A stretch of DNA of 64,000 bases. Source: Planosporangium flavigriseum (GTDB taxonomy: Bacteria > Actinomycetota > Actinomycetes > Mycobacteriales > Micromonosporaceae). The stretch lies in assembly GCF_011947225.1 (NCBI RefSeq), contig NZ_JAATVW010000017.1, forward strand, positions 62,001 through 126,000, read 5' to 3'. Positions 19,007 to 49,488 of the stretch are shown here, one piece after another. Each line of letters begins with the position of its first letter. Position 1 is the first letter of the stretch. The notes under the pieces were generated by a model. It was not told the origin of the DNA. It saw only the letters and a program-made list of their open reading frames with translations, and did no database searches. The position numbers were made by a program, and so were the translations under genes.

Positions 19007-19292
19007 GGTCACTTCCCCACCGGTGCGTACCAGCTTGCAGCGTGCCAGGGGCATGAAATGACAGAACTGATCTTTCGAACAGTCACGTGCTGAATGACCT
19101 CCGACCGCGCTGCGCCGAGCCTGCCCGCCAGCGCTAGCCGCCTGCCGTGCGTGGAGTAGCTCAGCAGAGGCGCACTGTCACCCGCAAGCGCTGACTGACA
19201 GGAGAGACGATAGGGCGAGCGAAAATCGGCTGATTGGTTTAGCCGTGACGGATGAACGGGGTACAATCGACCGGCGCCGCTACCGCTCAGGG

Positions 19293-31064: not shown

Positions 31065-32762
31065 GTGAACACGAAAGCAGGAGGAATGCGGCAGTTCATG
31101 CTTGATGGGACGATGGCGACATTAAGTGCCATCCCGGTGGAGGCCGTCGAGCACGGCGAGATCTTCACGCGTCGATGGGTTGTCGATCTGATCCTCGACC
31201 TCGCCGGCTACGACGAGGAGCGCGATCTCGCGTCGCTGGTCGCAGTTGAGCCAGCCTGTGGCACGGGAGCATTCCTGGAGCCGATGGTCGTCCGGCTCAG
31301 CGAATCGTTACGACGACACAACCGCACCCTTGATCAAGCCTCCGGCGCCATCCGCGCTTTCGATCTCTTGCCCCGGAACGTCGAGTCCAGCCGGCGCCTG
31401 GTGGAGAAGGTACTCATCCGCGACGGTTGGCCAGCCGAAGACGCAATAGCGCGCGCGGAGGACTGGGTGCAGGAGGGCGACTACCTCCTTGCTGACCACC
31501 AGGATGAAGGCGTCGACTTCGTGCTGGGTAACCCGCCTTACATCCGCCTAGAGGATGTCCCGACCGATCGCATGCTGGCGTACCGGGCGGCATGCTCCAC
31601 GATGACAGGGCGATCGGATGTGTACGTCGGGTTCTACGAAATCGGGCTCCGGTCACTTAAGCGTGACGGAGTGCTTGGCTTCATCTGCGCCGACCGTTGG
31701 ATGCGCAACCAGTACGGCCGGGAACTACGCAAATTCATCGCCGATAGCTTCAGCGTTGAGGCGACGATCATCATGCACGATGTGGACGCTTTTGAAGAGC
31801 AGGTGTCGGCGTACCCTGCGATCTCGATCCTGCGTCGTAGTCAACAAGGTGCCGCCGTCGTCGCTGATACGAGTGAATCATTCGGCCCGGATGATGCGGC
31901 GACCGTCTTGGCGTGGACCCGGGATGGCCAGTCCCATGCAATCAGGACCGACCGGTTCGAGATCGCGCGACTGCCCCACTGGTTCGATGGCTCCGATTCG
32001 TGGCCGGCCGGCTCACCGGCTCGTCTCGCTTTGATCGAGGAACTGAACGATCGATTCCCTCTTTTGGAGGACCAGACGACAGGCACGCGGGTCGGCATTG
32101 GCGTCGCTACAGGCGCCGACGGCGTCTTTGTGACCAAAGACGCCGACGTCGAGTCGGACCGCCTACTGCGACTATCGATGGTCCGCGACACGATTTCTGG
32201 CACGCTGACCTGGTCCGGGCGCTACTTGGTTAATCCCTGGGACGACCAGGGCAAGCTTGTTGACCTGGAGGCCTACCCGCTCCTGCGCGCTTATTACGAG
32301 CGGCATGCCGATGCGCTGAAGCGACGGCATGTTGCGGGCAGGCGACCGGCCCACTGGTATCGGACAATCGACAAGGTCGATAGTGCGCTGACTGCTCGTC
32401 CCAAGCTGCTGCTCCCCGACATGAAGCTCACCATTCATCCAGTCCTGGATGAAGATGGATTGTATCCGCACCACAACCTGTACTACATCGTCTCGGACGA
32501 CTGGGACCTGCGTGTGCTCGGCGGCCTTCTGATCTCCCGCGTGGCCCAGGCCTTCATCGAGGCTTATGCCGTCAAGATGCGCGGCGGCACCCTCCGCTTC
32601 CAAGCGCAGTATCTACGTCGTATCCGCGTACCCCGGCCCGAGACGATCTCGGATGCGGACCGTGCCATGCTCGCCGATGCTTTCGAGAAGAGAGACACTG
32701 TGGCCGCAACCGAGGTCGCCATGCGGGTTTACGGTATTGATTATGACTGGAACGAAAGCTGA
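31065..32762 (+). CDS. type II DNA adenine-N6 methyltransferase (PaeR7I/XhoI-type)
   Basis: A gamma-class adenine methyltransferase of up to 565 residues. The SAM-binding motif VEPACGTGAFLEP and the catalytic NPPYIR are both present, followed by a C-terminal target-recognition region (about 330-545, with YPHHNLYYIV and RGGTLRFQAQYLRRIRVP). The convergent neighbour is a PaeR7I-type endonuclease, so the predicted target is CTCGAG, with methylation of the adenine. The start is uncertain: GTG 31065 gives the longest form, while an AGGAGG at about 31080-31085 lies upstream of ATG 31098. The enzyme protects the chromosome from the paired nuclease. Confidence 0.85.
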   Translation: MNTKAGGMRQFMLDGTMATLSAIPVEAVEHGEIFTRRWVVDLILDLAGYDEERDLASLVAVEPACGTGAFLEPMVVRLSESLRRHNRTLDQASGAIRAFDLLPRNVESSRRLVEKVLIRDGWPAEDAIARAEDWVQEGDYLLADHQDEGVDFVLGNPPYIRLEDVPTDRMLAYRAACSTMTGRSDVYVGFYEIGLRSLKRDGVLGFICADRWMRNQYGRELRKFIADSFSVEATIIMHDVDAFEEQVSAYPAISILRRSQQGAAVVADTSESFGPDDAATVLAWTRDGQSHAIRTDRFEIARLPHWFDGSDSWPAGSPARLALIEELNDRFPLLEDQTTGTRVGIGVATGADGVFVTKDADVESDRLLRLSMVRDTISGTLTWSGRYLVNPWDDQGKLVDLEAYPLLRAYYERHADALKRRHVAGRRPAHWYRTIDKVDSALTARPKLLLPDMKLTIHPVLDEDGLYPHHNLYYIVSDDWDLRVLGGLLISRVAQAFIEAYAVKMRGGTLRFQAQYLRRIRVPRPETISDADRAMLADAFEKRDTVAATEVAMRVYGIDYDWNES

Positions 32763-32774
32763 CAGGGCGAAGAT

Positions 32775-33494
32775 CTAGCCGAGTACAGACCGCACATAGT
32801 TAACGCGGCCCTGAACGGCAACTCGGAAGCTCTTGCCCGTTGCAGTGGCAAGCGGTTCGTCATATGTGACGCGCCCGTCATCGTGGGACTTCGTCGTGAT
32901 AAACCAGCCAGCCTGGTAGACGTTGTCACTCACGAAGCGGGAAATCATTTCCTGGTATCGCTGGTTGTATGACAAGCCCTTGAAGGTCTGATCGGCCATA
33001 AAGAGTGCATCAATGGACCTGTTCGACTGTTCGGTTTCCTGAGTTTCTTGCAGAACGAACACGTAGCCAAGCCATGGCGGAACCTCACCGAAAGCATCGA
33101 ACTTCTTCTGGGCGGCCCATGTGTCCGTTGCCGTGCCGAGGGCTTCTTCAAACCGGTTATTGATGTTCTTTCCGACGCTACCAACCTGGGATTTGAACTC
33201 AAGGGCGGCGACGAGAGCGCCCTTGTAGCGAATCGCCATATCCCAGCGCTTGCGGGCCCGGTAGTAGCCAGGAAGGAAGGGTTCGTAGGTGATGGAGTCT
33301 TCGGGGAGTCCCGCGTCCACAAAGATTTTTGCCACGAGGTCTCTGATGCCATTCATGTGGCCTGCGGCGCGCGCCCCGCCTCCAGCAAGCCCGCCGTCTG
33401 GCAGCGCGGCAAGTTGATCGGCCCTCGCTGTCCAGAAGAGCGAGACAGCAGCCTGGGTCGGATCGCTCGGCACAGATGCATGGTTAACGGCCAA
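32775..33494 (-). CDS. PaeR7I/XhoI-type restriction endonuclease
   Basis: 239 residues from a TTG start at 33494, chosen because AGGAG lies seven bases upstream and because the length then matches PaeR7I (about 246 residues). The N terminus has the family's TQAAVSLFWTARADQ segment. The core includes YRARKRWDMAIRYKGALVAALEFKSQVG (Asp and Glu-x-Lys of a PD-(D/E)XK site), then NNRFEEALGTATDTWAA. PaeR7I and XhoI cut CTCGAG. The gene converges on its methyltransferase with a 12-base gap, giving a complete type II system. CTCGAG is present in the window (for example 9091, 15941 and 34069), as expected for a methylated host. Confidence 0.85.
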   Translation of the reverse strand: MAVNHASVPSDPTQAAVSLFWTARADQLAALPDGGLAGGGARAAGHMNGIRDLVAKIFVDAGLPEDSITYEPFLPGYYRARKRWDMAIRYKGALVAALEFKSQVGSVGKNINNRFEEALGTATDTWAAQKKFDAFGEVPPWLGYVFVLQETQETEQSNRSIDALFMADQTFKGLSYNQRYQEMISRFVSDNVYQAGWFITTKSHDDGRVTYDEPLATATGKSFRVAVQGRVNYVRSVLG

Positions 33495-34174
33495 GGTTGA
33501 CTCCTGGTGATCGACACATGACACAGATGGAGGTCTTGATCTTAAGGGTGCGTCAGCGGATCGGTACACATCTGCGTCAAGTGACTCTTGACGGCAACCG
33601 CCTATCGCCGGTGTGTCTGCCGTCGGCACATCCCTCAGGAAGCAGATGCCGCGCGGGGCACCGCCCCGACACGACCGTGACCCACCTACTGGAGCTCTGG
33701 CGGGCTCGGGTGCCCGTCTGCACCGGCGAAGCGTCTGGAGATGCGGGGCAGCGGCAGCGTCGAGCCGTAGCGATGACCTGGAGGCTGCGGACCTGCCCAT
33801 CCTTCGAGGCGCAGGCCTTTCGCCACAGTGCGGACCACGAAGAGTTCGACCAGGAATCCTTTGTCGCTGCCCTCGTCGCACAGATCCGCTTAGTGGCCGG
33901 TTTCCTCGTGCCCTCCGCGAAAGCATTACCTGGTCATTACTTCTACATGTCTTGATCAAGCTGGGTGACGGCCAGATCGAATGACATTAAGACCATCTGA
34001 CCTGCATTGACGCATACCGCCCCTTGATTTGTCCCGGATTGGCTTGCTTGCCACCGAAAAACTGCGCTCTCGAGATTTGACGCGCAGTGCATCCAGGGGT
34101 AGTTGTATCGACGGCGCTCACGCCAGGTCCGCAAGTCGCGGGCGAACTGAGCTGAGCCGGAAAGGCGATGCTTC
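33495..34174. other. spacer without recognised gene
   Basis: About 680 bases between the restriction endonuclease start and the 251-residue hypothetical gene. Reading frames on both strands are present but none has a family motif, a ribosome binding site and consistent codon use together. It includes the promoter of the endonuclease gene. Nothing else recognised. Confidence 0.4.
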
Positions 34175-36433: not shown

Positions 36434-37735
36434 TTAGCCAGAATCCCGAACACGGTGGCCATGTAAATGAGCCATGATCGCCTGGTTGGCCTCCCACCCG
36501 TCTGGGAACTTCACCGGCACGTTCAGGTGCACCGGCTCCGTCGATGGATGAGCGTCCAGCAGCTCCGGTATCCCGGCCCGCGCCACCACGATGCACGCGT
36601 GCCGATGCCGTGACGCCAGCACGCACAGCCGCCCCGACTCCAGGTGGAACGCCGTCGCATCGCGCCGCCCCGAGAGCGGGTGCAGCACGATCGTCACGTC
36701 GTACTCGCGGCCCTGGAGCCGGTTCGCCGTGTCGACGGTGATCTCCGACGACTCGGGCAGGTACGACCGGATCGCCGCCACCTGGTCGCGGTGCGCCGCC
36801 CCGATCGCGACCCGAGCCTCCGTCACCGGCGCACCATCAGGCGCGACCTCCGAATACGCCACAGCCCCGCGCTCCACCACCCGCTGAGCCAGCGCAGCAC
36901 ACGCCGCAGCCGCCTCGGCATCGGTACGCAGCGTGTGCTGGGACGGCAGCTCATACAGCGCCCACCCGGTGGCAGCCGCCATCTCCACGGCGGCGTCGAC
37001 CGCCCCGCCACCAACACCAGAGGTGGACAACGACAACCGACGGTCCCCCTCACCCGTCCCCGACGTGAACTCCGCGAACGGATAGAACGCCTGCGACACC
37101 ACCGGCGCCGCCGAGTACGGCAGCCGCCACGACACCGGCAGCCGGTGCACCGGCAGATCGGGGTTGTGCCGCAACAACACCGCCACCGCGCTCTGCATCG
37201 GGTCCCACGTCAGCCCGGTCCACCGCTCGCTCTCCACGACGGAGAACGGGTCGAGCTGCCCCGGATCCCCCACGAACAAAGCCTTATCGAACCGGTTCGC
37301 GATGCGCAGCAGCATGTCCGAGCGCATCTGGTATGCCTCGTCCACGATCGCCCACGGCCACTGCCCCTCCGACAGCGTGGCCCACTTCGCGGCCGTACCA
37401 ATCACAATCAGCGCCGGTCCGAGGTCGGCCACCTTCGACCCGACCGTCACGGAGGCATGCTGAGCGACCCGCGGTGGCGCCACGTACCCCTGCGCCGACA
37501 GCCGCCCGATCCCCACCCCCGGCGGCAGTGCCGGCACCAGCCGGGCGATCAGGTCGTCCACCTGCTCATTCGTCTGCGCCACAATCATCAGCGGCAGCTG
37601 ACCCGACGACACCATCGAAGAAGTAGCCCGCACAACGAGCGTCGACTTCCCCGCCCCCGGCGGCGAGTCGACGACAACCCCCCGATGCAATCCCGACGTC
37701 AAGTCTGCAAGCACCGCAGGCAGTACATCGCTCAC
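36434..37735 (-). CDS. superfamily 1 (Upf1-like) helicase/ATPase
   Basis: 433 residues from GTG 37735, which overlaps the stop of the preceding gene by four bases. Motifs in order are VVVDSPPGAGKSTLVV (Walker A, about 21-35), AIVDEAYQM (motif II), FVGDPGQLDPFSVVE (motif III), VDTANRLQGREYDVTIVLHP (motif V) and VLASRHRHACIVV (motif VI). This is the order of Upf1/Dna2-type SF1B helicases. It is the last gene of a four-gene leftward operon that also encodes a Cas4/Dna2-like Fe-S nuclease. Nuclease and helicase are thus separate genes here, whereas Dna2 carries both in one chain. Confidence 0.75.
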   Translation of the reverse strand: MSDVLPAVLADLTSGLHRGVVVDSPPGAGKSTLVVRATSSMVSSGQLPLMIVAQTNEQVDDLIARLVPALPPGVGIGRLSAQGYVAPPRVAQHASVTVGSKVADLGPALIVIGTAAKWATLSEGQWPWAIVDEAYQMRSDMLLRIANRFDKALFVGDPGQLDPFSVVESERWTGLTWDPMQSAVAVLLRHNPDLPVHRLPVSWRLPYSAAPVVSQAFYPFAEFTSGTGEGDRRLSLSTSGVGGGAVDAAVEMAAATGWALYELPSQHTLRTDAEAAAACAALAQRVVERGAVAYSEVAPDGAPVTEARVAIGAAHRDQVAAIRSYLPESSEITVDTANRLQGREYDVTIVLHPLSGRRDATAFHLESGRLCVLASRHRHACIVVARAGIPELLDAHPSTEPVHLNVPVKFPDGWEANQAIMAHLHGHRVRDSG

Positions 37736-39192
37736 GACCAGTCCTCCGCCGCGTCCTCGTCGTCCGGCACGTACTCCACCGGCGGCCCGCCGTGCGTCCA
37801 CGGCGTCTCCTCCCGCGACGGGAAGGCCGCCGGCGCCTGGTACGACTCCGTCAGCGTCGTGTACGTCAACCGCTCCCCCACCTCGGGCACGCTCCCCGGC
37901 GGCGTGGTCAGCCCTCGCCCCATCCCGCCCGACAGCTCAAGCACCACGTCAGGCCCGGACACCGAAACAAACGAACCCGTCTGGGACGGCCGAGCCGGCG
38001 ACACCACCGACGCTCCCGGCCCCAACAGCACAGGATCCTCAGACCGCACAGTCACATGCGGCCGCAGCACCCTCCGCTTACCGCTGTCGTCGATCCGGTC
38101 AGGCGAGGAAGCAATCACAGTGCCAGCAAAGGCTTCCCCGGACAGCCGGTACTCCGCCAACAGCAACGGGTCGTCGTACGCCCGCTGCGCGTCATACAGC
38201 GCCTGCGCCCGCTCTAGCCGCGCCAGGCGTTGCGCCGCCGCGACCGCCACATCCCGCTTGGCCTGCGGATACCCGCCCTCGGCGACGTACGACGCGAACC
38301 CGGTGAACGCGTCCCGGTCCGCGGTCCAGCGCTGTTCCACCCGAGCCCCCGGCGGCAGCCCCCGCAGCAGCGAGACCCCGCGCCACATCAGCTCCCACGT
38401 CGGCATCAACTGCGACCGCAGCGCAGACTCCAACATGGATAGTGAGCCGGCCTCGATCGCCGGCGCCAGCACCTCGTTGTCGAACGTCGGGTCCGTCGCC
38501 GGCCCGGCCGGCGGCCACGTCAGCGGATCTTCCGCCTCCAGTGCCGCCTCAGCGCCAGACATACCGGAAGGCGGGTCGATCCAGCCGACCAGCGCCGCCA
38601 GGTTGGCGTCCTCGACGGCACTCTGCCCCGTCGCCCAGTGCATGCTGAGCGCGCCGGTCATGCTCACAAGCAAGGACGAGCCAGGGTACTCGGAACGCTC
38701 CGCGAAGAAGGTCAGCCACCGCCCGAGCAACGGCACCGAGGCGTCGACCGCGTACTCCCCCTCGGTACGCCGGAAGCGCGTCGACCGCCCGAACAGCCGC
38801 ACGAACCCGACGCCACCACCGTTCGGTACCAGAATCTGCGGCGCGTCGACGTACCGTTCCCGTGGCTCGGTGTTCCGACCGGCCGGCACGGTCTCCGTCT
38901 CTCCGCAGAAACTGTCCACATACGACAGCAGGATGGCAGCCAGCTTTGCGGCGAACTCGAACCGTTGATCCCGGTTACGCGGCTGCGGCACGAAAAGCAA
39001 CTGCGGCGCGTCAGGCGACGATCCGACCAGCGCCGCCAGCGGTGCGTTCGCCTCCCCCGCGAGCGCCAACGGCACAAACACCAACGGTCGTGAAGACAGA
39101 TGCACATGTCGAACGGTCGCGATCGGCTGGGCGACCCCGGACGATACCGCCGACACCCTTGCGAGGGCCGTCAGCGCGCTCACGACAGGCAC
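37732..39192 (-). CDS. hypothetical protein between Fe-S nuclease and SF1 helicase
   Basis: Up to 486 residues. GTG 39192 gives a 13-base overlap with the nuclease gene, and GTG 39183 a 4-base GTGA overlap; the latter pattern is used by its neighbours. The N-terminal part is rich in beta strands and Ala/Val (RPLVFVPLALAGEANAPLAALVG, QLLFVPQPRNRDQRFEF). There is a helical centre with LERAQALYDAQRAYDDPLLLAEY, and an acidic C terminus (YVPDDEDAAEDW). No recognised family or catalytic motif. Tight coupling on both sides suggests it belongs to a complex with the nuclease and helicase. Confidence 0.65.
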   Translation of the reverse strand: MPVVSALTALARVSAVSSGVAQPIATVRHVHLSSRPLVFVPLALAGEANAPLAALVGSSPDAPQLLFVPQPRNRDQRFEFAAKLAAILLSYVDSFCGETETVPAGRNTEPRERYVDAPQILVPNGGGVGFVRLFGRSTRFRRTEGEYAVDASVPLLGRWLTFFAERSEYPGSSLLVSMTGALSMHWATGQSAVEDANLAALVGWIDPPSGMSGAEAALEAEDPLTWPPAGPATDPTFDNEVLAPAIEAGSLSMLESALRSQLMPTWELMWRGVSLLRGLPPGARVEQRWTADRDAFTGFASYVAEGGYPQAKRDVAVAAAQRLARLERAQALYDAQRAYDDPLLLAEYRLSGEAFAGTVIASSPDRIDDSGKRRVLRPHVTVRSEDPVLLGPGASVVSPARPSQTGSFVSVSGPDVVLELSGGMGRGLTTPPGSVPEVGERLTYTTLTESYQAPAAFPSREETPWTHGGPPVEYVPDDEDAAEDWS

Positions 39193-40277
39193 TCCGAGCG
39201 CAGCTTGGCCGCGAACCGCAGCATCTCAGCCGCCTCTATCTCGTCTTCCGCCGGAGGAACAGCCCCCGAGGCCAGGGACAGCGCATGAGACACCGACGAA
39301 ACCCCGCCCAGCTCCTCGCGTACCGACTTCCCCAGAGCGGCCGTCGACCCGCGCGCCTCGTGCCGGCAGAAGAACGCCAGCTCGCAGTTGGCCAGGCACT
39401 CCGGCGAGTACCGGGCGTCGATCTGCCCCATGCCGTCGACCAGCTCGGCGACCGGTCGCTGCGGCACGCCGGCGTCATCGACCTGCAGGTCAAAGGTCAA
39501 CGATGGCGACAGCCCGTCGACGATGGCGTCGATCCGCCCCATCCGGGCCAGCTGCCGTTCCAGTACCGAAAGCTTCTTCCGCACGTCGACCAGCGTCGCG
39601 ACCGGGCGGTTGGAGAAGTTCTCCGGGCACACCAGCACCACGTCGTGCGAAACGAGACCGGGGTCGTAGCCGGCCTCGGCAAGGAGCCGGCGCATCGCGA
39701 GCACGTACACCGCGGACTGGGTCGCGGCCGCGGACACCTTCGTACCGTCAGCTTTTCCATCAATCACAGCGAACGACTTGATTTCGACGACGTAGAACTT
39801 CCCGCCGAACTGCAGCGCGATCAGGTCGGGCTCGAGGTAGACCCACCGGCCGCCGACCTCCAGCCGCAGCAGCGGGTGGTCGAACAGCGTCCCGGCGTCC
39901 TCGTCGCCGTCAGCGGCGCGGGTCAGCAACTCCCGCGACCGGTCAGCTCGGGCGTCCAGCTGGTTGACCGACTCCAGGTCGTCGTACGCCGCGGCCCCGA
40001 TCGGCAGCGCCAGCACCTCGCGCAGCAGGCGGAGCAGCTCGGCACACCCATTGGCCTTCAGCTGCGCCTCAAAGACGTTGCCCCGTGTGATGGCGAACTG
40101 CGACTGGCCGAACCGCGCCGGGAACCCCACGTGCGACGCGAGCCGCTCCTTGTCGATGCCGGCCGCGTCCATCACCGCCCGCCGCGAGCATCCCGGGTTC
40201 GTGGTGAGCGCGGCGATCGTACGCGCGTTGTGGCTTTTCGGCGCGGCAGCGCCGCGCAGGCACTCAAGGTTAGTCAT
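39180..40277 (-). CDS. PD-(D/E)XK nuclease with Cas4/AddB-like Cys cluster
   Basis: 365 residues. The catalytic core is clear: YLEPDLIALQFGGKFYVVEIKSF (about 146-169) gives the Asp and Glu-x-Lys of a PD-(D/E)XK fold. A Cys near residue 30 (NPGCSRRAV) and a C-terminal CLANCELAFFC (about 291-302, C-x3-C-x5-C) match the one-plus-three Cys layout of the Fe-S cluster in Cas4, AddB and Dna2 nucleases. It lies in one operon with an SF1 helicase, two genes downstream. A role in processing or degrading DNA ends is expected. The Fe-S cluster is inferred from the Cys pattern. Confidence 0.75.
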   Translation of the reverse strand: MTNLECLRGAAAPKSHNARTIAALTTNPGCSRRAVMDAAGIDKERLASHVGFPARFGQSQFAITRGNVFEAQLKANGCAELLRLLREVLALPIGAAAYDDLESVNQLDARADRSRELLTRAADGDEDAGTLFDHPLLRLEVGGRWVYLEPDLIALQFGGKFYVVEIKSFAVIDGKADGTKVSAAATQSAVYVLAMRRLLAEAGYDPGLVSHDVVLVCPENFSNRPVATLVDVRKKLSVLERQLARMGRIDAIVDGLSPSLTFDLQVDDAGVPQRPVAELVDGMGQIDARYSPECLANCELAFFCRHEARGSTAALGKSVREELGGVSSVSHALSLASGAVPPAEDEIEAAEMLRFAAKLRSECLS

Positions 40278-40280
40278 TAC

Positions 40281-41048
40281 TCACAAACCCCCGTTGACCT
40301 GGGAAACTGCCCGCATTCGGCTGCCGAACAACTGCGCCGCGTCGTCAAGTTTGGTACGGGCTCGCTCGGCGGCCGCTTCGCGGTGCGACCGGTCGGCGTC
40401 TTCGTGGACCGCGAGCTCGGCTCGGGCCGCCCGCGCCACCACCTCGGGCTGCACCTCGGCGAAGCCGGGAGCGGCGGCGCCGGGGATGTTCTCGGCGAAC
40501 CGCCAGAGCAGCTTTGTCGCCGCGGGAGCCCGCTCCACCTGCTCGGCGATGCGGATCGCCGCGGTGAGGAAGTCGACGCGGGCACTGAGCGGCCCGACGA
40601 TGCGGCGGCTCAGCGGCCAGGTCGAGACCGCTAGCAGCCCGCGCGCCGGCGCGAGCAGGTCGGCGGTCAGGGCGGAGCAGAGATAGTACGGGCGCTGCCG
40701 TGGCGCCGAGCGGAACGACCGCTCCTCGTCCCGGCGGAGGCTGGTGAGCCGCGCGCCGACGATCTCCCCGGCGAAGAACGCTTCGTGTACGGCGATGACG
40801 AGCTTCGGCGCGGCCGGGGCGCCGAGCAGGGTCAGCGCGTTGTGTACCTGGTCACGGAGCGGGACCAGTGGCGCGTCCGGCATCTTTTCAACGAGCCCGT
40901 CCAGCGCGGCGTCCCACTCCCGCTCGGCCCGCCGCAGCTCGGCGCGCAGGACCCTGGCCTGGGCCCGGTCGCCGGCCAGGACGGTCTGCCGCACGGCCGT
41001 ACGCAGCTCGTCGATGCGGCGCTCAAGCGTCTCTACCGGGGTGGGCAC
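40281..41048 (-). CDS. hypothetical coiled-coil protein
   Basis: 255 residues from GTG 41048. The N-terminal 50 residues form a likely coiled coil (VETLERRIDELRTAVRQTVLAGDRAQARVLRAELRRAE). The rest is helical and Ala-rich with an Arg-rich middle (LTSLRRDEERSFRSAPRQRPYY), ending in AERARTKLDDAAQLF. No family recognised. It is the first gene of the four-gene leftward operon, three bases before the Fe-S nuclease gene, and is divergent from the DruH-like gene. Confidence 0.65.
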   Translation of the reverse strand: MPTPVETLERRIDELRTAVRQTVLAGDRAQARVLRAELRRAEREWDAALDGLVEKMPDAPLVPLRDQVHNALTLLGAPAAPKLVIAVHEAFFAGEIVGARLTSLRRDEERSFRSAPRQRPYYLCSALTADLLAPARGLLAVSTWPLSRRIVGPLSARVDFLTAAIRIAEQVERAPAATKLLWRFAENIPGAAAPGFAEVQPEVVARAARAELAVHEDADRSHREAAAERARTKLDDAAQLFGSRMRAVSQVNGGL

Positions 41049-41224
41049 CGGCAGACACTACGAGTTCCAGTGTTTTCCAGCAATCACCAGTTCAGATGAT
41101 GGCCACCACCCGCAGGGCTACATACAGTGACACTGCCGCTCAATTAGGGTGCCTCAATTAGCTTCCGCAAGGGATATTCAGCGCAATCGCAAGATCCCGA
41201 CATGGCTTCGCAGGAGGAGGGGTC
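41049..41224. promoter_or_regulatory. divergent promoter region with repeated CTCAATTAG
   Basis: The 176 bases separate two divergent operons. The 9-mer CTCAATTAG occurs twice (41139-41147 and 41153-41161), 14 bases apart, and stands out as AT-rich in GC-rich surroundings. It may be a regulator site or part of the promoters. An AGGAGGAGG box just before 41225 sets the start of the rightward operon. Confidence 0.5.
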
Positions 41225-44200
41225 TTGTCACGGGCGACAGAGACACTCGCGGAGCGGGAAGTGCTCTGGCAACCGCGCCTTCGAGCGGTGTCGCTCGTCT
41301 GCGAGCTCGACATCCCCGAAAACGAGGTACGGACAACCCTGTGGCACCTGGGCGAGCTGTACGCCAAGGTGTACGAGCGGGAACGGCACCTCCGGTTACT
41401 CAACCGGCTCTCCGCCTGCGTCGTGGTCGGGTTGGCGGGGATCGGCGCCGTCGAGTATCAACAGGGGGCGTTCTGGCCCGCTGTCAGCGACCAGATGGAC
41501 ATGCAGCTCAACAACGACGACAAGAAGCTGCTTGGGGAGGCGTTCCGACACGGGCTGGACCGGTTTGGGCTGGCGCGCTTCACGAACTTCAGCAGGATCA
41601 ATGTCGACGAGATCCTCATGCACTCCGGGATCCCCCTGTTCTGCCTCGGCGACTTCCTGAACGCCCTCCTGCGTCAGCAGGCATTGGACCCGGACGTACT
41701 GACCCCCGAAGAGTTCATGGAATGGGCGACCGGCCCCGGCCGGGAGTCTCGGCTCCACGCCCTCGACAAGCCGGTTCAGCGCCTACTCTGGCACGGCGGC
41801 GTCTATGTCGAAGACCTGGTCGACCGCTGTCTGGAGCTGGTCGACCGGCTGCGGGAGCCGGCGTTCGTCAACGACGGTCTGCAGCTGCCGGACAGCCTGG
41901 TGGCAAAGGCGCTCGACCTCGCCAAGTCGGGGTTGCTCAACCTCTCGTCGGCCCGGGAGACGGGTGCGGGGCTGGGGACCCGCCCCCGTCTTCTCCTGGA
42001 GCCGTACGGGCGGGGCCTGATGGCCTGGCTGCCCCCGATCCCGGACGCGCCCCTCGGCCAGGTGGAGTGGGACCTCGTCATCGGAGGGCAACCGCAGACG
42101 GTTCGGAGCCGCTCGGTTCTCCCGGCGGCGAGGGACACCGCACCGGCCGTCAGCGTGCCGCTCCCCCGGCCGGTCCGGGAAGTCGAGGTGGACCTGCGCG
42201 AATTCGACCTCAGCCTCGCGCTTCCGGTGGTCGACGCCGAGGACCCGCTCATGGTCTTCACGGACGAGGGCCGGCGGATCCCGGCGTCGGCCAGTTTGCC
42301 GCCGACCTCGGTGTGGCTGATGCACCCGCGAGGCGAGGATAGCGACGGCCCGGACCCGGTCGAGTTCAGTGGCTCACCCGTCCACGAGGACGAGCCCGCA
42401 GCTCCGTACGGATGGGCCGGCTGGCGGTTGCGACGGGTCAATCTCGCCGACGTGGCCCGGATCCGGCTCCGGGACAAGCCATGGCGAAACGTCGAAGGCG
42501 GTCGCCGCCCGCAGCTGGACTTGACGTCCCCGGTTCGGCACGTACGCAGCCGCCTAGACTCGCCGGTGTGGACCGAGGCGCCGAATCTGATTCTCCCGGC
42601 TGACCCGGGCACCACGACGGGCTGGACGATCCGCATCCGCCGGCCGGGCTCACCGCAGGCGCTGTCCGTCCAGGACATCGAGGTGTCCGAGGATACCCGG
42701 ATCGATCCGTGGCAGGGCGTGAAGCGCCCGCTTGTCGGCGCGTACGAAATCGCCGTCCGAGGACCGCTCGGCCGGGGTATCTCGCAGCGGTTCGAGTTCG
42801 CGGAGGGCTTCGCCGCGTCGTGGACGCCGGAGTGGCGCGAGCTGGGTTACGGCGGGCTTCAGGCGTGCAGCGTCGGCGCCACCGCCGCAGACCCGGAGCT
42901 GCACCTCAACCCGGCGGTCGTGCGACTGGCGCCCGAGCAGGCCAGCGCCGACTTCATCGTCGCCGCCCACGGCGAGGAGTACGCGCTCCGGGTGACCCCG
43001 CCCCATCTTGCGGTGCAGCACGGCGGCACGGGCGCCAGAGCTGAGTGGGCGCTACGCCCGCTCCGCCTCGACACCGAGGCCGTCGGCGAGGGCCACCTGA
43101 TGGTGTTGCTGCCGGGCAACGTCCGGGCCGACTTGGTCGTCTTCAACGGCGCGGAGCAGGCGCAGCGGATTCCCGCGAGCGGCGCGTCGAGGCCCGGAAC
43201 GGCCAGATTCGAACTGGCCCGCGTTGCTGAGACGGTACAGGCGCTCGGCACCGCGGAACTCAAGGTCGACCTACACGGCCTGCTGTTTCCTGTGGCGAAG
43301 TGCGTTCCGCGCAGCCTCGCCAAGGGGGTGCGGATCGACGACAGCGGCTGCCTCGTGGTGGCGGGCGCAACCGCGGCCGAAGGCTTGACGGCCGGGATCT
43401 ACCGGGGCCTCGCGCCATGGCAGGAGCCGTACGTGACGGCCGTACATGGCGACCTGCGCAGCTCGCCGTTGCCGGACTCCGTCACGGCGGCGGGAGACCT
43501 CGTCGTACACCTGCGGATCGATGATCCGTGGGTGCCACAGGACTGGCCGCGGTGGCCCGAGCCCACCAACACCTTCCTGATCCGAGACCGGCCGTGGCGA
43601 GCCACCGACGGCGGTGACAGCGATGAGGTGGCGCTGTCGCGGTACCTCGCCGGTGCCGGTCCCCTGCCGATGTCGTCCGGCGCCACCAGGCTGGCGTTCA
43701 ACCTGTACGACCGCGCCGACGACCTCAAGGCTCTCGGTGCGCACGGAGACCTGCGTGCCGTTGCCGCGAAGCTCATCACGGCGGAGCCCACCACCGCTTT
43801 GCAATCCATATTGGAGGGACGGCCGGCGCCGGCCACCACTGTGGCACCCCTCATCCACGCAGGGTTTGCGGCGCTCCCGCCGCGGCGCTACCTGACCGAC
43901 GATGACGAGGTCTCGCTGTGGGTTATCAATCCCCTGGCCGCGGTTCTTGCCTCCGCGCATCAGCTCGATGACATCATCGTCCGGTCGCCGCTGCACGAGC
44001 GGCTCCTCACGGTCTGCGGTGCGGAGCTCTTCGATCTGCTGCTGATCGGCGACCCGGATCCCCACGCCCGCATAGGTAGCTTCGACGCCAGCGCCGAGCT
44101 GCTCGCCCAGATGGACTCCGACAGCCTGGACGCGTTATGGGCCGCGACTCCGGTCGTACCCGGTGCTCTTCTCGACTGCGACGAGCGGATATCCGCCGCC

Positions 44201-44542
44201 CGTGAACTCTTCGACGCCCGTCTCCGGCCCGGAATTGTCAGTCTCGCGGCGGCGACCGAGCGGCACCTGCGGTTACTCGTACCGGTTATTGAGAACGCCG
44301 GAGGCGCCGAGCTCGCCCAGGCGGTCCGGGCCAGAGACCAGGGTCCCGGCTGGCGCTCGCTGCCCGCGCTGTCGATCGCGCTGTGCCTGGCATCGCGGCT
44401 CGCGGCCCGCGGATACGAGCACCTGGCGACCCTCATGCCACAGCTGACCGAAGCCCACGCGCGACTCGCGCGCCACTCGCCGCAGCTCACCACCATCGAC
44501 GTCGTACTCGCCGAACTCCTCGTGACGGGATCTCAACTATGA
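41225..44542 (+). CDS. DruH-like large protein of a Druantia III-type system
   Basis: 1105 residues from a TTG start, which is supported by AGGAGGAGGGG directly upstream. The N-terminal 240 residues are helical (LWQPRLRAVSLVCELDIPENEV, GLAGIGAVEYQQGAFWPAV, FLNALLRQQALDPDVL, LLWHGGVYVEDLVDRCLELVDRL). The middle is beta-rich with many short domains (about 250-850), and the end is helical again. I recognise no catalytic motif. Length, position directly before a DUF1998 helicase of DruE size and the four-base overlap with it match the Druantia type III pair DruH-DruE. The name is based on size and gene order, not on a sequence search. Confidence 0.55.
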   Translation: MSRATETLAEREVLWQPRLRAVSLVCELDIPENEVRTTLWHLGELYAKVYERERHLRLLNRLSACVVVGLAGIGAVEYQQGAFWPAVSDQMDMQLNNDDKKLLGEAFRHGLDRFGLARFTNFSRINVDEILMHSGIPLFCLGDFLNALLRQQALDPDVLTPEEFMEWATGPGRESRLHALDKPVQRLLWHGGVYVEDLVDRCLELVDRLREPAFVNDGLQLPDSLVAKALDLAKSGLLNLSSARETGAGLGTRPRLLLEPYGRGLMAWLPPIPDAPLGQVEWDLVIGGQPQTVRSRSVLPAARDTAPAVSVPLPRPVREVEVDLREFDLSLALPVVDAEDPLMVFTDEGRRIPASASLPPTSVWLMHPRGEDSDGPDPVEFSGSPVHEDEPAAPYGWAGWRLRRVNLADVARIRLRDKPWRNVEGGRRPQLDLTSPVRHVRSRLDSPVWTEAPNLILPADPGTTTGWTIRIRRPGSPQALSVQDIEVSEDTRIDPWQGVKRPLVGAYEIAVRGPLGRGISQRFEFAEGFAASWTPEWRELGYGGLQACSVGATAADPELHLNPAVVRLAPEQASADFIVAAHGEEYALRVTPPHLAVQHGGTGARAEWALRPLRLDTEAVGEGHLMVLLPGNVRADLVVFNGAEQAQRIPASGASRPGTARFELARVAETVQALGTAELKVDLHGLLFPVAKCVPRSLAKGVRIDDSGCLVVAGATAAEGLTAGIYRGLAPWQEPYVTAVHGDLRSSPLPDSVTAAGDLVVHLRIDDPWVPQDWPRWPEPTNTFLIRDRPWRATDGGDSDEVALSRYLAGAGPLPMSSGATRLAFNLYDRADDLKALGAHGDLRAVAAKLITAEPTTALQSILEGRPAPATTVAPLIHAGFAALPPRRYLTDDDEVSLWVINPLAAVLASAHQLDDIIVRSPLHERLLTVCGAELFDLLLIGDPDPHARIGSFDASAELLAQMDSDSLDALWAATPVVPGALLDCDERISAARELFDARLRPGIVSLAAATERHLRLLVPVIENAGGAELAQAVRARDQGPGWRSLPALSIALCLASRLAARGYEHLATLMPQLTEAHARLARHSPQLTTIDVVLAELLVTGSQL

Positions 44543-47500
44543 CCAAGCTGGATCCGATCGCGACGACGGAAGCCGTCGTCGACGCGTACCAGCGTTACCT
44601 GCACACCCTGCTCGAGCCGCGCGACCCCGCCCTAGCTGGGGCCTTGGAGGCCGCCATCGCCGGGGCGATCCGCGAAGGCATCACCAAGGGTCCGATCCTG
44701 GAGGCGACCCCGCCGTACGCGCAGGGCAGGTCGGCCCGGGAGCTGATCAACGAGGAGGTGCTCCACCCGGAGTTCGCGAGCCTGGTCGGAGGAATCCCGC
44801 TCGACCGGACGCTGTACGTCCACCAGGAGAAGGCCCTCCGTAAGGCGACCCAGGGGCGCAACCTTGTGGTGGCGACCGGCACCGGATCCGGCAAGACCGA
44901 GAGCTTCCTGCTCCCGATCCTCAACCACCTCGTGGCCGAACGAGCGGCGGGCACCCTCAAGCCAGGGGTGCGCGCGCTGCTGCTGTACCCGATGAACGCC
45001 CTGGCGAACGACCAGATGAAGCGGCTGAGGGTACTGCTGCGGGATTCGCCTGACATCACGTTCGGCCGCTACACCGGCGACACGAAGCAGACAGCGCGCG
45101 AGGCCGCCAGCGTCTTCGAGCTCCAGAACCCTGGAGAACCCCGGGTCAGCAACGAGCTGCTCAGCCGGGACGAAATGCGCGCGAACCCGCCGCATATCCT
45201 GCTAACCAACTACGCGATGCTGGAGTACCTACTCCTACGCCCGCTGGACATGCACCTGTTCGAAGGCGACCACGCCGGCAACTGGCGGTTCATCGTCGTG
45301 GATGAGGCGCACGTGTACGACGGCGCCCGCGGCGCGGAGCTCGCGATGCTGCTGCGCCGCCTGCGCGATCGCGTGGCTCGCGGCAGCACCATCCAGTGCA
45401 TCGCGACGAGCGCCACCGTCGGCGGCGACCCTGCCTCTGCCGCACAGTTCGCGTCGTCGTTGTTCAACGTCCCTTTCGAGTACGACGTAGCCGACGACTC
45501 CCACCAGGACGTGGTCAGTGCCACCAGAGTGGACCACCCGCGGGGCCGGGAATGGGGCCCGTTGCCGGCCAGCGCCTACCCACGGCTGCTCGACGCCGAC
45601 GATCCCGGATCCGAGATTCTAGCCCAGGCAGCCGCCCAGGGTTTCACAAGCACCGACCCCGGCGAAGCGCTCGCCCATGAGCAGCGGGTCATGCGGCTAC
45701 GCAGCCTCCTCGCCGGTGGGCCGGTACCGCTGCCCGAGGTCGCGCAGGCGCTGATGCTCGGCGACGAGCACGCCGTACCGCACACGGCCGCCCTCGTCGC
45801 ACTCGCCAACGCCACCGGCGACCGGACCGGGACGCCGGTGCTGTCCGCCCGCTACCACCTTTTCGCCCGGGCGACCGAAGGCGCGTTCAGTTGCCTGGGC
45901 GGCAACGGCCCCCACGTCAGCCTGACCCGACGCGAACGCTGCGAGCACTGCGGCGACGCCAGTTTCGAGTTCGGTAGCTGCCGTCGCTGCGGCACGGTCT
46001 ACCTGTCCGGTGCCCTCGAACGGGTCGGCGCGCAGGCCGTCTTCCGCTCCCGGCGTACCTTCGACGAGCGCCGCGTCTGGTTGGCCCTCGCCGACGTTCT
46101 CAGCCCCGGTGCCGACGAGGACGACATCACGCTCGACTCGCTGCGGGCGACCGCCGGCGAAGAGGGCGGGCTATGTGCGCGGTGCGGAACCTTCATCGTC
46201 GGACCGGCGGGCATCTGCCCGACGGAGGGCTGCGACGGCGGCGCGATGCGGCCCGTACGTTTCATCAAGGATGGCGCCGACGAGCTCACCTCGTGCCTTA
46301 CCTGCGGCGGCCAATCCTCGTCACTGGTCCGGCTGTTCCAGACCGGCAACGAGGCAGCCGTCTCTGTACTCGCTACCGCGCTCTACCAGCTGCTGCCGCC
46401 GGCGCCCGAGCCCGAGCAGGCCGAACGCCCGGGTGGCGGCCGAAAGCTGCTGCTGTTCAGCGACAGCCGCCAGGCCGCCGCCTACTTCGCGCCATACTTC
46501 GACCAGTCCTACGGTCGGCTGCAACGGCGCCGGCTGCTGTACCAGGGCATCCTCAACGGTCTCCGGGTCGACGAGGACGTCCGGCTTCCCGACGTGGTCA
46601 GCCATGCCGCCAGAGAGGCCCATCAGTTCGGTGTCTTCGAAGCACGCGACTCCAAGCAGGCACGGGAAAGGAAGGTGGCGCTCTGGGCGCAGCAGGAGAT
46701 CGTCGGCCTCGACGAGCGGCTCACCCTTGAAGGCTCGGGGCTCGTCCGGTGGAGCATGTGGCGCGATCCGGCCTGGCAGGCTCCGCCGCCCCTGGTTCAG
46801 CTCGGCTTCTCTCAGGACGAGGCGTGGAACCTGCTCAACGAACTTGTCCGGACCGTCCGAACCCAGGGCGCGGTCGCCCCGCTTGAGGGTGTGGACCCCC
46901 GCGACGAGGCGTTCGACCCACGACGCGGGCCCATCTACATCCGCGGCACTGGCGCGGAGGCCAAGCGGAAGGTACTCAGCTGGAGCCCCACGCGCGGCAT
47001 CAACCGGCGTCTCAACTACCTGACCCGGCTGCTGCAGCGGCTCGGGTCCACGGCCGATCCGTCCCAGCTCCTCGACGGCACTTGGCGGTTCCTGACTCAG
47101 GGACCGGCGAAGATATGGTTCCGCCCGACGACAGAAGCCAATCTCGGCGTGGTCTTCCAGCTGGAGTCGGAGCTGCTCACCTGCGAGTCGGCCGACGAGG
47201 TCCCGGTGTGGCAGTGCACGGTCTGCCGGAAGCTGGTTCCATTCAGCGTGCGCGACGTCTGCCCCACGATGAACTGCACCGGTGCCCTTGTGCCGTGGTC
47301 GCTGCCGGACAGGACATCCGATACCGACCACTACCGGGCGATCTACCGCTCGATGAAACCGATTCCCCTCGCCGTGCGGGAACACACCGCGCAGTGGACC
47401 GGTGAGAAGGCGGCCGAGATCCAGCAGCAGTTCGTCCGGGGTGAGGTCAACGCGCTGTCATGTTCGACGACGTTCGAACTCGGCGTCGACGTTGGCGAGC

Positions 47501-49488
47501 TCCAGGCCGTCGTACTCAGGAACGTCCCGCCGACCACGGCCAACTACGTGCAGCGCGCTGGCCGCGCCGGCCGTCGCACCGACTCCGCCGCCCTCGTGGC
47601 CACTTACGCGCAGCGCAGATCGCACGACCTGTCGCGGTTCGCCGAGCCTCGCCAGATGATCGCGGGCCAGGTCCGCGCGCCGTACATTCCAGCCGGCAAC
47701 GTCCGGATCGACCGCCGGCACGCGCACTCGGTGGCCCTCGCCGCGTTCTTCCGCCACCAGTACCGCACCTTCGGAACGGAGTGGCGCCAGGTCGGTGCAT
47801 TCTTCCTGCCGTCGGACGGCGACCCCGCGCCGGTCACCGCGATCGCCGAATACCTGCGGCCGGTACCCGACGCCGTGACCGAGTCCCTCGTCAACGTTCT
47901 CCCGCCGGCCGTCCAGCAGGAGATCGGCCTCGACTCCGGTGCCTGGGTGGATCATCTCGTGGAGCTGCTCGACACCGTCCGCCTCGAGGTGGAGCACGAC
48001 TACAAGATCTACGCCGACAAACTCGACGAGGCCGCGGCTGCGCGGAAGTTCAACCAGGCGTCGATGTTCGAACGGCTGATCAACACCATCACCCGTCGTG
48101 ACCTGCTGGGTTTCCTCGGCAATCGCAACGTCCTACCCAAGTACGGATTTCCGGTTGACACGGTCGAGCTGAAGCTTTCGTATGCGGACCCCGAGGAAGC
48201 CAGCAAGCTCGAGCTCTCCCGCAACCTGACCACCGCGATCTACGAGTACGCTCCCGGCGCCGAAATCGTCGCCGGAGGCCGCCTGTGGCGGTCAGGCGGC
48301 ATCTACCGCCTGCCGGAACGCGAACCCGAGCGCCGGTACTACGCGCCGTGCACCAGCTGCAACTACTACCGTGAGAGCTTTGACCGACTCGACGACCCGT
48401 GCCCGTCATGCGGTACGGCGCCCACCGGGAGCGCGCGCCGCTACACGGTTCCGCTGTTCGGCTTTGTCGCCAGCAGAGAGCAGTCGCGTCAACCCGGCGG
48501 CCGGCCGCCGAAGCGCTCGTGGCACGGCGATACCTACGTCGTATCGCGCGGCGCGGAGGTCAAGGAGATCGTCCAGGGGCTGCCGGGTGGAAGGGTCAGC
48601 GCGCGCAGCGGCACCCGAGGCGAACTCGTCGCGGTCAGCGACGGCCCGGGCGGCAAGGGCTTTCTGATCTGCAACTGGTGCGGCTACGGCCAGCCGCAGA
48701 TCGAACGCCCGCCGCGCAGCCATGACAACCCCGTCAACGGCAAGGCGTGCGGCGGCAGGCTTGAGAACCTGTCACTTGCCCACAAGTACCAGACGGACGT
48801 GCTTGAGCTCGCGATCGAAGGTACCGCTGTTCTCGGCCTCGATACCCAGGTCTGGCTGTCGGTGCTGTACGCGCTCGTCCAAGGCGCCAGCGAAGAGCTC
48901 GAGATCTCCCGCGACGACATCGACGGCACCGTCTTCATTACGGACGCCGGCCGGACGGCACTGATGCTCTTCGACACCGTCCCAGGCGGAGCGGGACACG
49001 TTCGTAAGATCGCCGAGAATCTGCCAGAGGTCCTCGCACGCGCGTTCAACACGGTCGCGGACTGCGAATGCGGTCCCGAGACCAGCTGCTACCGGTGCCT
49101 GCGGGTATTCCGTAACGAGAAGTACCACGAGCGGCTCCGCCGAGGCGCCGCCGCCGACGTTCTGGGACGGCTGATCGGGAAGCAGACAACAGCCACTAGC
49201 GGCATACGCCGGCTGAGCATGGACCAGCTGGTCCATGCCGATCAGCTGACGACGCGATTCCTGGTCAACGAGGCGCCCGGCGAGGTGTTCGAGCCCGTTG
49301 CCAACAGCCACCTCGACCTTTACGAGGGCCGGATAGTCGCCGCGTCCTGCGATGGCTCCATCGGGGTAGGACGGCTCTGGCTGCGATACGACGAGGCCGG
49401 CATCGCCGAAGCGGGCATCCATCCGATGTGCGGAAGCTCCCTCCAGGGCCCGCCCGATACCATCCGAGTCACGGCGGTTGCCATATGA
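44539..49488 (+). CDS. DruE-like DEAD/DEAH helicase with DUF1998 (MZB) domain
   Basis: 1649 residues from ATG 44539, which overlaps the upstream stop by four bases. A superfamily 2 helicase core begins at VATGTGSGKTESFLLP (about 112-127), with VVDEAHVYDG (about 253) and the C-terminal motif QRAGRAGRR (about 1003). Between them lies an insertion with zinc-type cysteines (CEHCGDASFEFGSCRRCG, CARCG). The C terminus carries a DUF1998/MZB domain (about 1415-1530) with its four-Cys cluster CECGPETSCYRC, as in MrfA, DrmA, DpdJ and DruE. Size and partner favour DruE. MrfA-type proteins translocate on single-stranded DNA, so a DNA-scanning role in defence is likely. Confidence 0.75.
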   Translation: MTKLDPIATTEAVVDAYQRYLHTLLEPRDPALAGALEAAIAGAIREGITKGPILEATPPYAQGRSARELINEEVLHPEFASLVGGIPLDRTLYVHQEKALRKATQGRNLVVATGTGSGKTESFLLPILNHLVAERAAGTLKPGVRALLLYPMNALANDQMKRLRVLLRDSPDITFGRYTGDTKQTAREAASVFELQNPGEPRVSNELLSRDEMRANPPHILLTNYAMLEYLLLRPLDMHLFEGDHAGNWRFIVVDEAHVYDGARGAELAMLLRRLRDRVARGSTIQCIATSATVGGDPASAAQFASSLFNVPFEYDVADDSHQDVVSATRVDHPRGREWGPLPASAYPRLLDADDPGSEILAQAAAQGFTSTDPGEALAHEQRVMRLRSLLAGGPVPLPEVAQALMLGDEHAVPHTAALVALANATGDRTGTPVLSARYHLFARATEGAFSCLGGNGPHVSLTRRERCEHCGDASFEFGSCRRCGTVYLSGALERVGAQAVFRSRRTFDERRVWLALADVLSPGADEDDITLDSLRATAGEEGGLCARCGTFIVGPAGICPTEGCDGGAMRPVRFIKDGADELTSCLTCGGQSSSLVRLFQTGNEAAVSVLATALYQLLPPAPEPEQAERPGGGRKLLLFSDSRQAAAYFAPYFDQSYGRLQRRRLLYQGILNGLRVDEDVRLPDVVSHAAREAHQFGVFEARDSKQARERKVALWAQQEIVGLDERLTLEGSGLVRWSMWRDPAWQAPPPLVQLGFSQDEAWNLLNELVRTVRTQGAVAPLEGVDPRDEAFDPRRGPIYIRGTGAEAKRKVLSWSPTRGINRRLNYLTRLLQRLGSTADPSQLLDGTWRFLTQGPAKIWFRPTTEANLGVVFQLESELLTCESADEVPVWQCTVCRKLVPFSVRDVCPTMNCTGALVPWSLPDRTSDTDHYRAIYRSMKPIPLAVREHTAQWTGEKAAEIQQQFVRGEVNALSCSTTFELGVDVGELQAVVLRNVPPTTANYVQRAGRAGRRTDSAALVATYAQRRSHDLSRFAEPRQMIAGQVRAPYIPAGNVRIDRRHAHSVALAAFFRHQYRTFGTEWRQVGAFFLPSDGDPAPVTAIAEYLRPVPDAVTESLVNVLPPAVQQEIGLDSGAWVDHLVELLDTVRLEVEHDYKIYADKLDEAAAARKFNQASMFERLINTITRRDLLGFLGNRNVLPKYGFPVDTVELKLSYADPEEASKLELSRNLTTAIYEYAPGAEIVAGGRLWRSGGIYRLPEREPERRYYAPCTSCNYYRESFDRLDDPCPSCGTAPTGSARRYTVPLFGFVASREQSRQPGGRPPKRSWHGDTYVVSRGAEVKEIVQGLPGGRVSARSGTRGELVAVSDGPGGKGFLICNWCGYGQPQIERPPRSHDNPVNGKACGGRLENLSLAHKYQTDVLELAIEGTAVLGLDTQVWLSVLYALVQGASEELEISRDDIDGTVFITDAGRTALMLFDTVPGGAGHVRKIAENLPEVLARAFNTVADCECGPETSCYRCLRVFRNEKYHERLRRGAAADVLGRLIGKQTTATSGIRRLSMDQLVHADQLTTRFLVNEAPGEVFEPVANSHLDLYEGRIVAASCDGSIGVGRLWLRYDEAGIAEAGIHPMCGSSLQGPPDTIRVTAVAI

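Follow-up and report, generated by a model that had tools for sequence, protein, structure and literature searches.

How an enzyme of the Dna2 type might be assembled in bacteria from separately encoded parts, and what it would be used for, is the question raised by four adjacent genes in the genome of Planosporangium flavigriseum (RefSeq assembly GCF_011947225.1, contig NZ_JAATVW010000017.1). The genes, here called U255, NUC, U486 and HEL, occupy positions 36434–41048 on the minus strand of a 64,000-nt stretch of this contig (positions 62001–126000), which is referred to as the window. The reading put forward, with a probability of roughly 60%, is that the operon encodes a repair complex of split Dna2 type that processes DNA ends, that U255 is its regulator, and that the module has sometimes been recruited to defence islands. 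Gene conservation, conserved residues, co-occurrence and promoter elements were observed by sequence comparison.

Four coupled genes and their predicted products

U255 (40281–41048; 255 amino acids (aa)) is the first gene of the operon and is followed by NUC (39180–40277), predicted to encode a 365-aa PD-(D/E)XK nuclease whose cysteines follow the one-plus-three iron-staple pattern. Next are U486 (37732–39192 as called, with a probable start at 39183), for a protein with a predicted DnaQ-like fold plus a stalk and beta-barrel, and HEL (36434–37735), for a 433-aa superfamily 1 (SF1) helicase core of Upf1/Dna2 type (domains 1A and 2A). U255 and NUC are separated by 3 nt, and U486 and HEL overlap by 4 nt. 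The overlap of NUC and U486 is 13 nt with the called start, and the family consensus start MSxLTALAR points to a GTG at 39183, which gives a U486 product of 483 aa and a 4-nt GTGA overlap with the NUC stop. All four open reading frames are present with spacings or overlaps of a few bases, in agreement with the original observation of a four-gene operon with coupled stops and starts.

Cysteines C30, C294, C298 and C304 of NUC, as well as D151, E165, K167, Q187 and Y191, were kept in 130–131 of 131 homologues, and E70 in 129 of 131. The motifs that had been read in the 365-residue protein are upheld across the family, and loss of the Cys and catalytic residues in close relatives, which had been named as evidence that would count against the idea, was not seen (129–131 of 131 retained). 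NUC is thus predicted to be an iron-sulphur (iron-staple) nuclease subunit. The Pfam match to PDDEXK_1 (E 0.011) was below the cut-off, a PDB sequence search returned only de novo repeat proteins, which are spurious, and NCBIfam TIGR03491 matched neither NUC nor U486.

HEL was matched by the Pfam families AAA_11 (1.1e-8) and AAA_12 (4.7e-8), and its Walker A and B and later SF1 motif residues were kept in 78–82 of 82 homologues. The top match in a PDB profile search was Dna2 (E 3.4e-14), and the identification of the 433-residue protein as an Upf1-like SF1 helicase therefore stands. HEL also matches the helicase part of TM0106-type fused proteins (E 1e-24). Walker A begins at residue 27, and the alignment of HEL begins at residue 208 of Ighmbp2 and 649 of Dna2, where the stalk and barrel of those proteins end; the stalk and beta-barrel are not in HEL.

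The missing part appears to be carried by U486. In the AlphaFold model of U486 (mean predicted local distance difference test (pLDDT) score 84.6, built from 43 sequences), residues 313–464 superimposed on Ighmbp2 6–159 with a VIA-align Z of 10.3 (3.9 Å over 130 aligned residues), and residues 344–452 on Ighmbp2 37–142 with a Z of 9.6 (2.1 Å, 88 aligned). The C-terminal part gave Z values of 8.0–8.3 against Dna2 442–568 and 6.7–7.8 against Setx and Sen1, and unrelated beta-barrels reached 7.3 or less. Residues ~313–464 are thus modelled as a stalk and beta-barrel of Upf1/Dna2 type without a counterpart in HEL. Residues 34–291 resemble DnaQ-type exonucleases (Z 8–10), including B-family polymerase exonuclease domains (9.9) and RNase T (8.4). 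The first strand of this domain reads PLxxAGE; as the D-x-E acids of a DnaQ enzyme do not appear at the expected strand, the modelled N-terminal domain is probably an inactive exonuclease. There was no Pfam family for U486, no RNase_H_2 match in U486 or three relatives, and no match in PDB sequence searches with U486.

Dna2 is arranged as an OB domain, a nuclease, a stalk-held beta-barrel and helicase domains 1A/2A, with active-site residues D278, E299, K301 and Q314 (PMC4716839), alongside which NUC has D151, E165, K167 and Q187, and the stalk is characteristic of the UPF1/DNA2-like family (PMC11090510). The operon order NUC, U486, HEL therefore repeats the Dna2 domain order in three chains. 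We infer that the three proteins would assemble as a Dna2-like tunnel enzyme, in which U486 would be a bridging subunit: its stalk and beta-barrel would complete the HEL motor in trans and its DnaQ-like domain, probably a dead exonuclease, would be a scaffold or DNA guide. HEL, a two-RecA-domain motor of the SF1B type, would pull single-stranded DNA (ssDNA) in the 5' to 3' direction. The complex would load on ssDNA at ends or flaps and unwind it for NUC to cut, as Dna2 and the bacterial enzyme Bad do, its target being broken or stalled DNA that is processed for repair.

A role in remodelling RNA or RNA-DNA hybrids (R-loops), like that of Upf1, Sen1 or Ighmbp2, with NUC removing flaps or hybrids, was also considered, as HEL and the U486 C-terminus resemble a family that includes RNA helicases and the N-terminal fold of U486 is also like RNase T. 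However, the iron-staple nuclease pattern is typical of DNA enzymes (AddB, Dna2), Dna2 is the top match of HEL, the DnaQ-type active-site acids do not seem to be at the expected strand of U486, and the module has links to SbcCD and to a DNA-damage promoter (see below), making this role very unlikely.

Distribution, neighbours and the question of defence

Relatives of NUC were found in 35 of 249 genomes of the order and 11 of 246 genomes of the phylum (overlapping sets), and in three of 72,556 plasmid records; a search of 50,697 phage records yielded none, and none was confirmed in viral contigs. A U486 profile search of genome contigs identified at least 594 relatives, and the best 80 were all from actinomycetes. 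Among 130 NUC loci, for which neighbourhood genes were called with a custom caller, 65 included U255, NUC, U486 and HEL, 15 included NUC, U486 and HEL, and 50 included NUC and U486 only. The last group belonged mostly to Micromonospora (genus g2), where HEL was relocated rather than lost: it shares ~73–77% identity and is mostly on the same contig and strand, ~10–105 kb away (~39 kb in G015 and ~105 kb in G139, with ~10 kb in G063 from the neighbouring genus g3). A 780-aa gene lies between U486 and HEL in one Micromonospora copy (L041; 15619–18030) and is also present in L091 and L094.

The 35 of 249 genomes carrying NUC were the same 35 that carry a strong HEL match (E 1e-150 or better), with no discordance, while in six further genomes the HEL-like matches were all distant (E 1e-10 to 1e-26). 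Within genus g2, both genes were present in 25 genomes and neither in eight. That separate genes are kept or lost together argues for a single function, though the genomes are not independent. U255 matches were found in 14 of 249 genomes, 13 of which also carry NUC.

The NUC tree largely tracks taxonomy, and core-like synteny was seen in Actinomadura, Nonomuraea, Streptosporangium, Dactylosporangium, Micromonospora and family f18 (probably Streptomyces). All seven f18 genomes among the matches listed carry NUC, and none was among the listed negatives. The f18 and Micromonospora loci have housekeeping-type neighbours that include PAP2, GGDEF-EAL and cyclopropane synthase genes. In seven f18 loci (L080–L086) a small conserved gene (~122 aa) was found 3' of HEL, and in six of them a Prim-Pol domain gene is next. 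Other loci have settings of a mobile type. SbcD and SbcC genes adjoin the operon in nine of the 130 loci (six downstream on the same strand, three divergent upstream), which are spread over several parts of the NUC tree; in these lineages SbcCD, which is of the Mre11-Rad50 type, would open or trim the ends.

In the window, the operon is separated by 176 bases (41049–41224) from a divergent operon that includes a gene for a DruE-type helicase (PADLOC E 3.5e-180), which seems to belong to the COG1205/DUF1998 helicase class. The description of this operon as Druantia-like holds for the helicase; the 1105-aa product of its first gene (41225–49488 region) matches no PADLOC or Pfam family. Relatives of the 1105-aa protein occur in seven of 249 genomes of the order, the window's own included, and in the three other genomes fetched (L185, L187, L188) it is beside DruE with no member of the four-gene operon called there. 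It may represent a Druantia partner not described before.

The genes flanking the gap, seven in all, might be taken as a single system sharing one promoter region, which was the original suggestion from the divergent layout and the 176-base gap, and both operons look as if they process DNA. However, the 1105-aa partner was found by tblastn at none of 50 related NUC loci, and is elsewhere with DruE rather than NUC, and the promoter elements predicted for the four-gene operon are complete (41055–41090) and are built alike in loci where the neighbours differ. A seven-gene unit with Druantia was ruled out on the first two of these grounds, and the idea of one system can be given almost no credence. 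The shared 176-base region is real but joint regulation from it is not indicated, and the expectation that the four genes move together was borne out for the four-gene set (65 of 130 loci) but not for its pairing with the divergent operon (0 of 50). As the adjacency is not repeated elsewhere, it seems to be a chance arrangement local to a defence island.

Directly 3' of DruE, a gene at 49485–50378 encodes an HNH protein that scores above the cut-off of the NCBIfam model for the phosphorothioated-DNA restriction endonuclease. A type II methyltransferase gene and a convergent type II restriction enzyme gene are at 31065–33959, the enzyme being presumably PaeR7I-like. Two overlapping giant genes at 7270–19054 encode a 2190-aa SNF2/DrmD-like helicase and a 1739-aa protein that, from inspection of the sequence, reads like fused DinG and RecQ helicases.

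These surroundings bear on a further explanation, in which the operon is an anti-phage or anti-plasmid defence whose helicase-nuclease breaks down incoming DNA that U255 or U486 recognises. The window copy is among genes for DruE, the type II methyltransferase and restriction enzyme, the phosphorothioate-sensing HNH protein and an Mrr enzyme; two Streptomyces plasmid copies (L089, L090) adjoin Wadjet jet genes (JetABCD); and the patchy distribution and second copies in some genomes also fit. PMC5704561 discusses unfused pairs of Cas4-like and helicase genes located close to defence genes, and also describes Cas4-like genes with COG1205/DUF1998 helicases. Plasmid records label the module proteins 'hypothetical protein' or 'AAA ... 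protein'. However, the module has genus-conserved chromosomal places in several genera, its tree largely follows taxonomy, no phage match was found in the records noted above and none was confirmed in viral contigs, and a DNA-damage promoter precedes it in f18. PADLOC 2.0.0 gave no match for U255, NUC or U486 and only weak generic helicase matches for HEL (MkoA, 1.2e-8; MkoC, 6.2e-8). A defence function is therefore considered unlikely, though it retains appreciable weight.

Predicted control of the operon

Upstream of U255, on the minus strand, is a candidate operator and -35 element of 10-bp direct repeats, CTGGTG-N4-CTGGAA-N4-CTGGAA (41065–41090), with an exact CTGGAA-N4-CTGGAA at 41065–41080. 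A -10-like hexamer, TAGTGT (41055–41060, minus strand), ends 6 nt short of the start codon of U255 (41048). This sequence arrangement suggests that the four-gene operon has its own promoter at 41055–41090 and that its transcript is leaderless. CTGGAA repeats (at least 10 of 12 letters) precede 61 of 65 U255-headed operons, none of 65 NUC-headed operons and 13 of 1753 other genes, and two to four units are present in 62 of the 65 U255-headed operons; spacings from 7 to 15 other than the 10-bp period were seen in 0–11 of 65. The NUC-headed counts include some U255 loci, as the gene caller overlooked U255 at L074 and L089 at the least, where tblastn detected it, and the real U255 starts of such loci carry the repeats. 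TANNNT ending 6–8 nt before the start was found at 53 of 65 U255 heads, against a background of 214 of 1753 genes with one ending 2–14 nt before the start.

The exact CTGGAA pattern occurs four times in the window's own genome, once at the U255 operon, and 0–3 times in each of 14 other genomes, and with up to one mismatch it occurs 19 times in the own genome compared with 16 for the reversed control. As the exact pattern is rare and the mismatched count is near the control, this is a local site with no sign of a regulon. A strongly diverged whole four-gene operon (~29–39% identity) was identified at L179 (7714–12937, G236); no CTGGAA repeats were seen upstream of its U255, and L079 has only a degenerate form.

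U255 adjoins NUC in 65 of 130 loci. As U255 always adjoins the site, it is the natural candidate for binding the repeats, though this link is partly confounded by ancestry, since U255-bearing rows of the NUC tree are mostly in one clade. U255 is accordingly proposed, from the sequence pattern, to be the operon's dedicated DNA-binding regulator, which would act at the 10-bp repeats in the -35 region of the leaderless promoter. Structure prediction, the check that had been proposed for the 486- and 255-residue proteins, pointed to a stalk and barrel for U486 and gave no confident fold match for U255. The U255 model is all-helical with an N-terminal antiparallel helical hairpin (AlphaFold mean pLDDT 76.3, poor at residues 120–141); Foldseek returned nothing at E<=0.001, and as further structural comparison reached the N-terminal hairpin only, the fold does not lend support to DNA binding. 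Pfam, PADLOC and NCBIfam gave no significant match (best Pfam E 0.7). It is a real possibility that another protein binds the repeats and that U255 serves within the enzyme as a structural or recognition subunit, as it matches no helix-turn-helix family, is poorly modelled at 120–141 and shares its operon with enzyme subunits. This is opposed by the near-unique site in each genome and by the difference between U255-headed and NUC-headed operons.

In family f18, TTGTCAG(T/C)G-N9-AGACT was found upstream of NUC in seven of seven core loci (six exact, one with an extra mismatch), with background fractions of 0 to 0.0006 (n=1765; matrix from 33 genome sites). The pattern resembles the RecA-NDp consensus (TTGTCRGTG with a -10 element), which is reportedly that of Gamulin et al. 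in 2004. RecA-NDp-like patterns number 21–99 per f18 genome compared with 0–3 for the reversed pattern, and ten genes downstream of such sites, when scanned, included five DNA repair families (UvrD-type helicase, xseA for the exonuclease VII large subunit, uvrB, NAD+ ligase and an O6-alkylguanine-type family). In Actinobacteria, RecA-NDp promoters are located in front of DNA-damage genes, and PafBC recognises a motif similar to theirs (PMC8223512, PMC5087735). The f18 NUC genes are thus preceded by a putative RecA-NDp (PafBC-type) DNA-damage promoter, which would replace control by U255. Actinomadura heads carry a weakly similar sequence at an equal distance (best background fraction 0.0136), and upstream of Micromonospora HEL one of eight regions was strong, one intermediate and six had none. 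Alignment of 20 HEL upstream stretches, two of them off frame, revealed no shared block worth claiming, and there was no SOS-box signal, exact boxes preceding 0 of 130 operons compared with 20 of 1868 in the background.

Several results weigh against a split Dna2-type repair complex. The window and all 123 heads outside f18 were below the 99% background level for a RecA-NDp site, and the M. smegmatis PafBC motif seemed not to be conserved in S. venezuelae (PMC9380542). The module is absent from 214 of 249 genomes of the order and so is not an essential repair enzyme, and defence-like settings surround the copy in the window as well as those on plasmids (L089 and L090). Foldseek with the U486 model returned nothing at E<=0.001, with Dna2 at rank 20 (E 0.10, probability 0.97). 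Sequence descent of NUC and U486 from the TM0106 family was tried and rejected: in hhalign comparisons the NUC Cys region gave E 0.19 and the U486 barrel E 0.076, and several of 49 decoy families scored as high or higher (members outside 0.8–1.25 of the median length were dropped from the protein sets; 64 of 65 U255 sequences were kept). As the profiles are not above decoys, homology of NUC and U486 to the fused proteins rests on residues and predicted folds.

The split Dna2-type complex is nevertheless the best reading of the locus. In the original proposal of a four-protein DNA-end-processing complex, the conserved unit stands and is strengthened by the U486 fold, but co-function with the Druantia-like operon falls away. 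If correct, many actinomycetes, including antibiotic producers, have an unrecognised Dna2-like DNA-end-processing machine in separable parts, and omission of single subunits, not possible in a fused enzyme, could test the roles of nuclease, stalk/barrel and motor. The module would also show by what routes Dna2-type fusions could form or come apart, and it would provide a compact regulator-operator pair that is close to unique within each genome. A bolder extension is tentative and rather doubtful: that an unnamed, widespread three-chain bacterial Dna2 with a dedicated Mre11-Rad50 pair is the counterpart of eukaryotic MRX-Dna2 resection, with U255 as a damage-sensing (perhaps ssDNA-sensing) activator of its own operon in place of PafBC.

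Comparison with known helicase-nucleases

No paper naming this four-gene system was found in the open-access literature, subscription papers being outside the search. The four-gene operon is not described in the available excerpts of PMC7430649 and PMC5704561. Unfused UvrD/Cas4-like operons of Clostridiales (PMC5704561) are similar in having separate genes for a Cas4-like nuclease and an SF1 helicase outside a defence context, for which a repair role was proposed. However, the helicase is of the UvrD type (3'-5') and there are two genes.

TM0106 (TIGR03491) is fused to a helicase in actinomycetes, and the order PDDEXK, RNase_H_2, helicase in this one protein recalls that of the operon. Here the difference is the single chain, and only HEL matches beyond decoys. 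The window itself has a gene for a TM0106-type protein (535–2202), within 40 kb of the split system, which matches only the RNase_H_2 half of the model and is without the helicase part.

AddAB and AdnAB have UvrD-type SF1 motors fused to nucleases and act in DNA-end resection. The likeness to the module is an iron-staple nuclease (AddB) working with SF1 motors, and Dna2 itself has similarity to AddB (PMC4716839). Bad from Geobacillus (PMC7430649) is closer, as it joins a bacterial iron-staple nuclease to an Upf1-like helicase, but it is a single chain, is rare and is found beside a methyltransferase, whereas the module is split, widespread in actinomycetes and accompanied by U486 and U255. The statement, made at the outset, that a single Dna2 chain holds both activities omits the fused bacterial Bad (PMC7430649) and TM0106-type proteins.

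Eukaryotic Dna2 shares with the module an iron-sulphur PD-(D/E)XK nuclease, a stalk and beta-barrel and an SF1B helicase core, predicted here in the same order (PMC4716839). No N-terminal OB domain was listed in structure searches with the U255 and U486 models. The module further differs in the DnaQ-like domain modelled in U486, and the position of the active-site His164 of Dna2 appears to be that of Glu70 in NUC. Dna2 is one chain and the module three, and as the nuclease and helicase are encoded by separate genes, which is so in 130 of 130 NUC loci, the module is not classed as a Dna2 enzyme.

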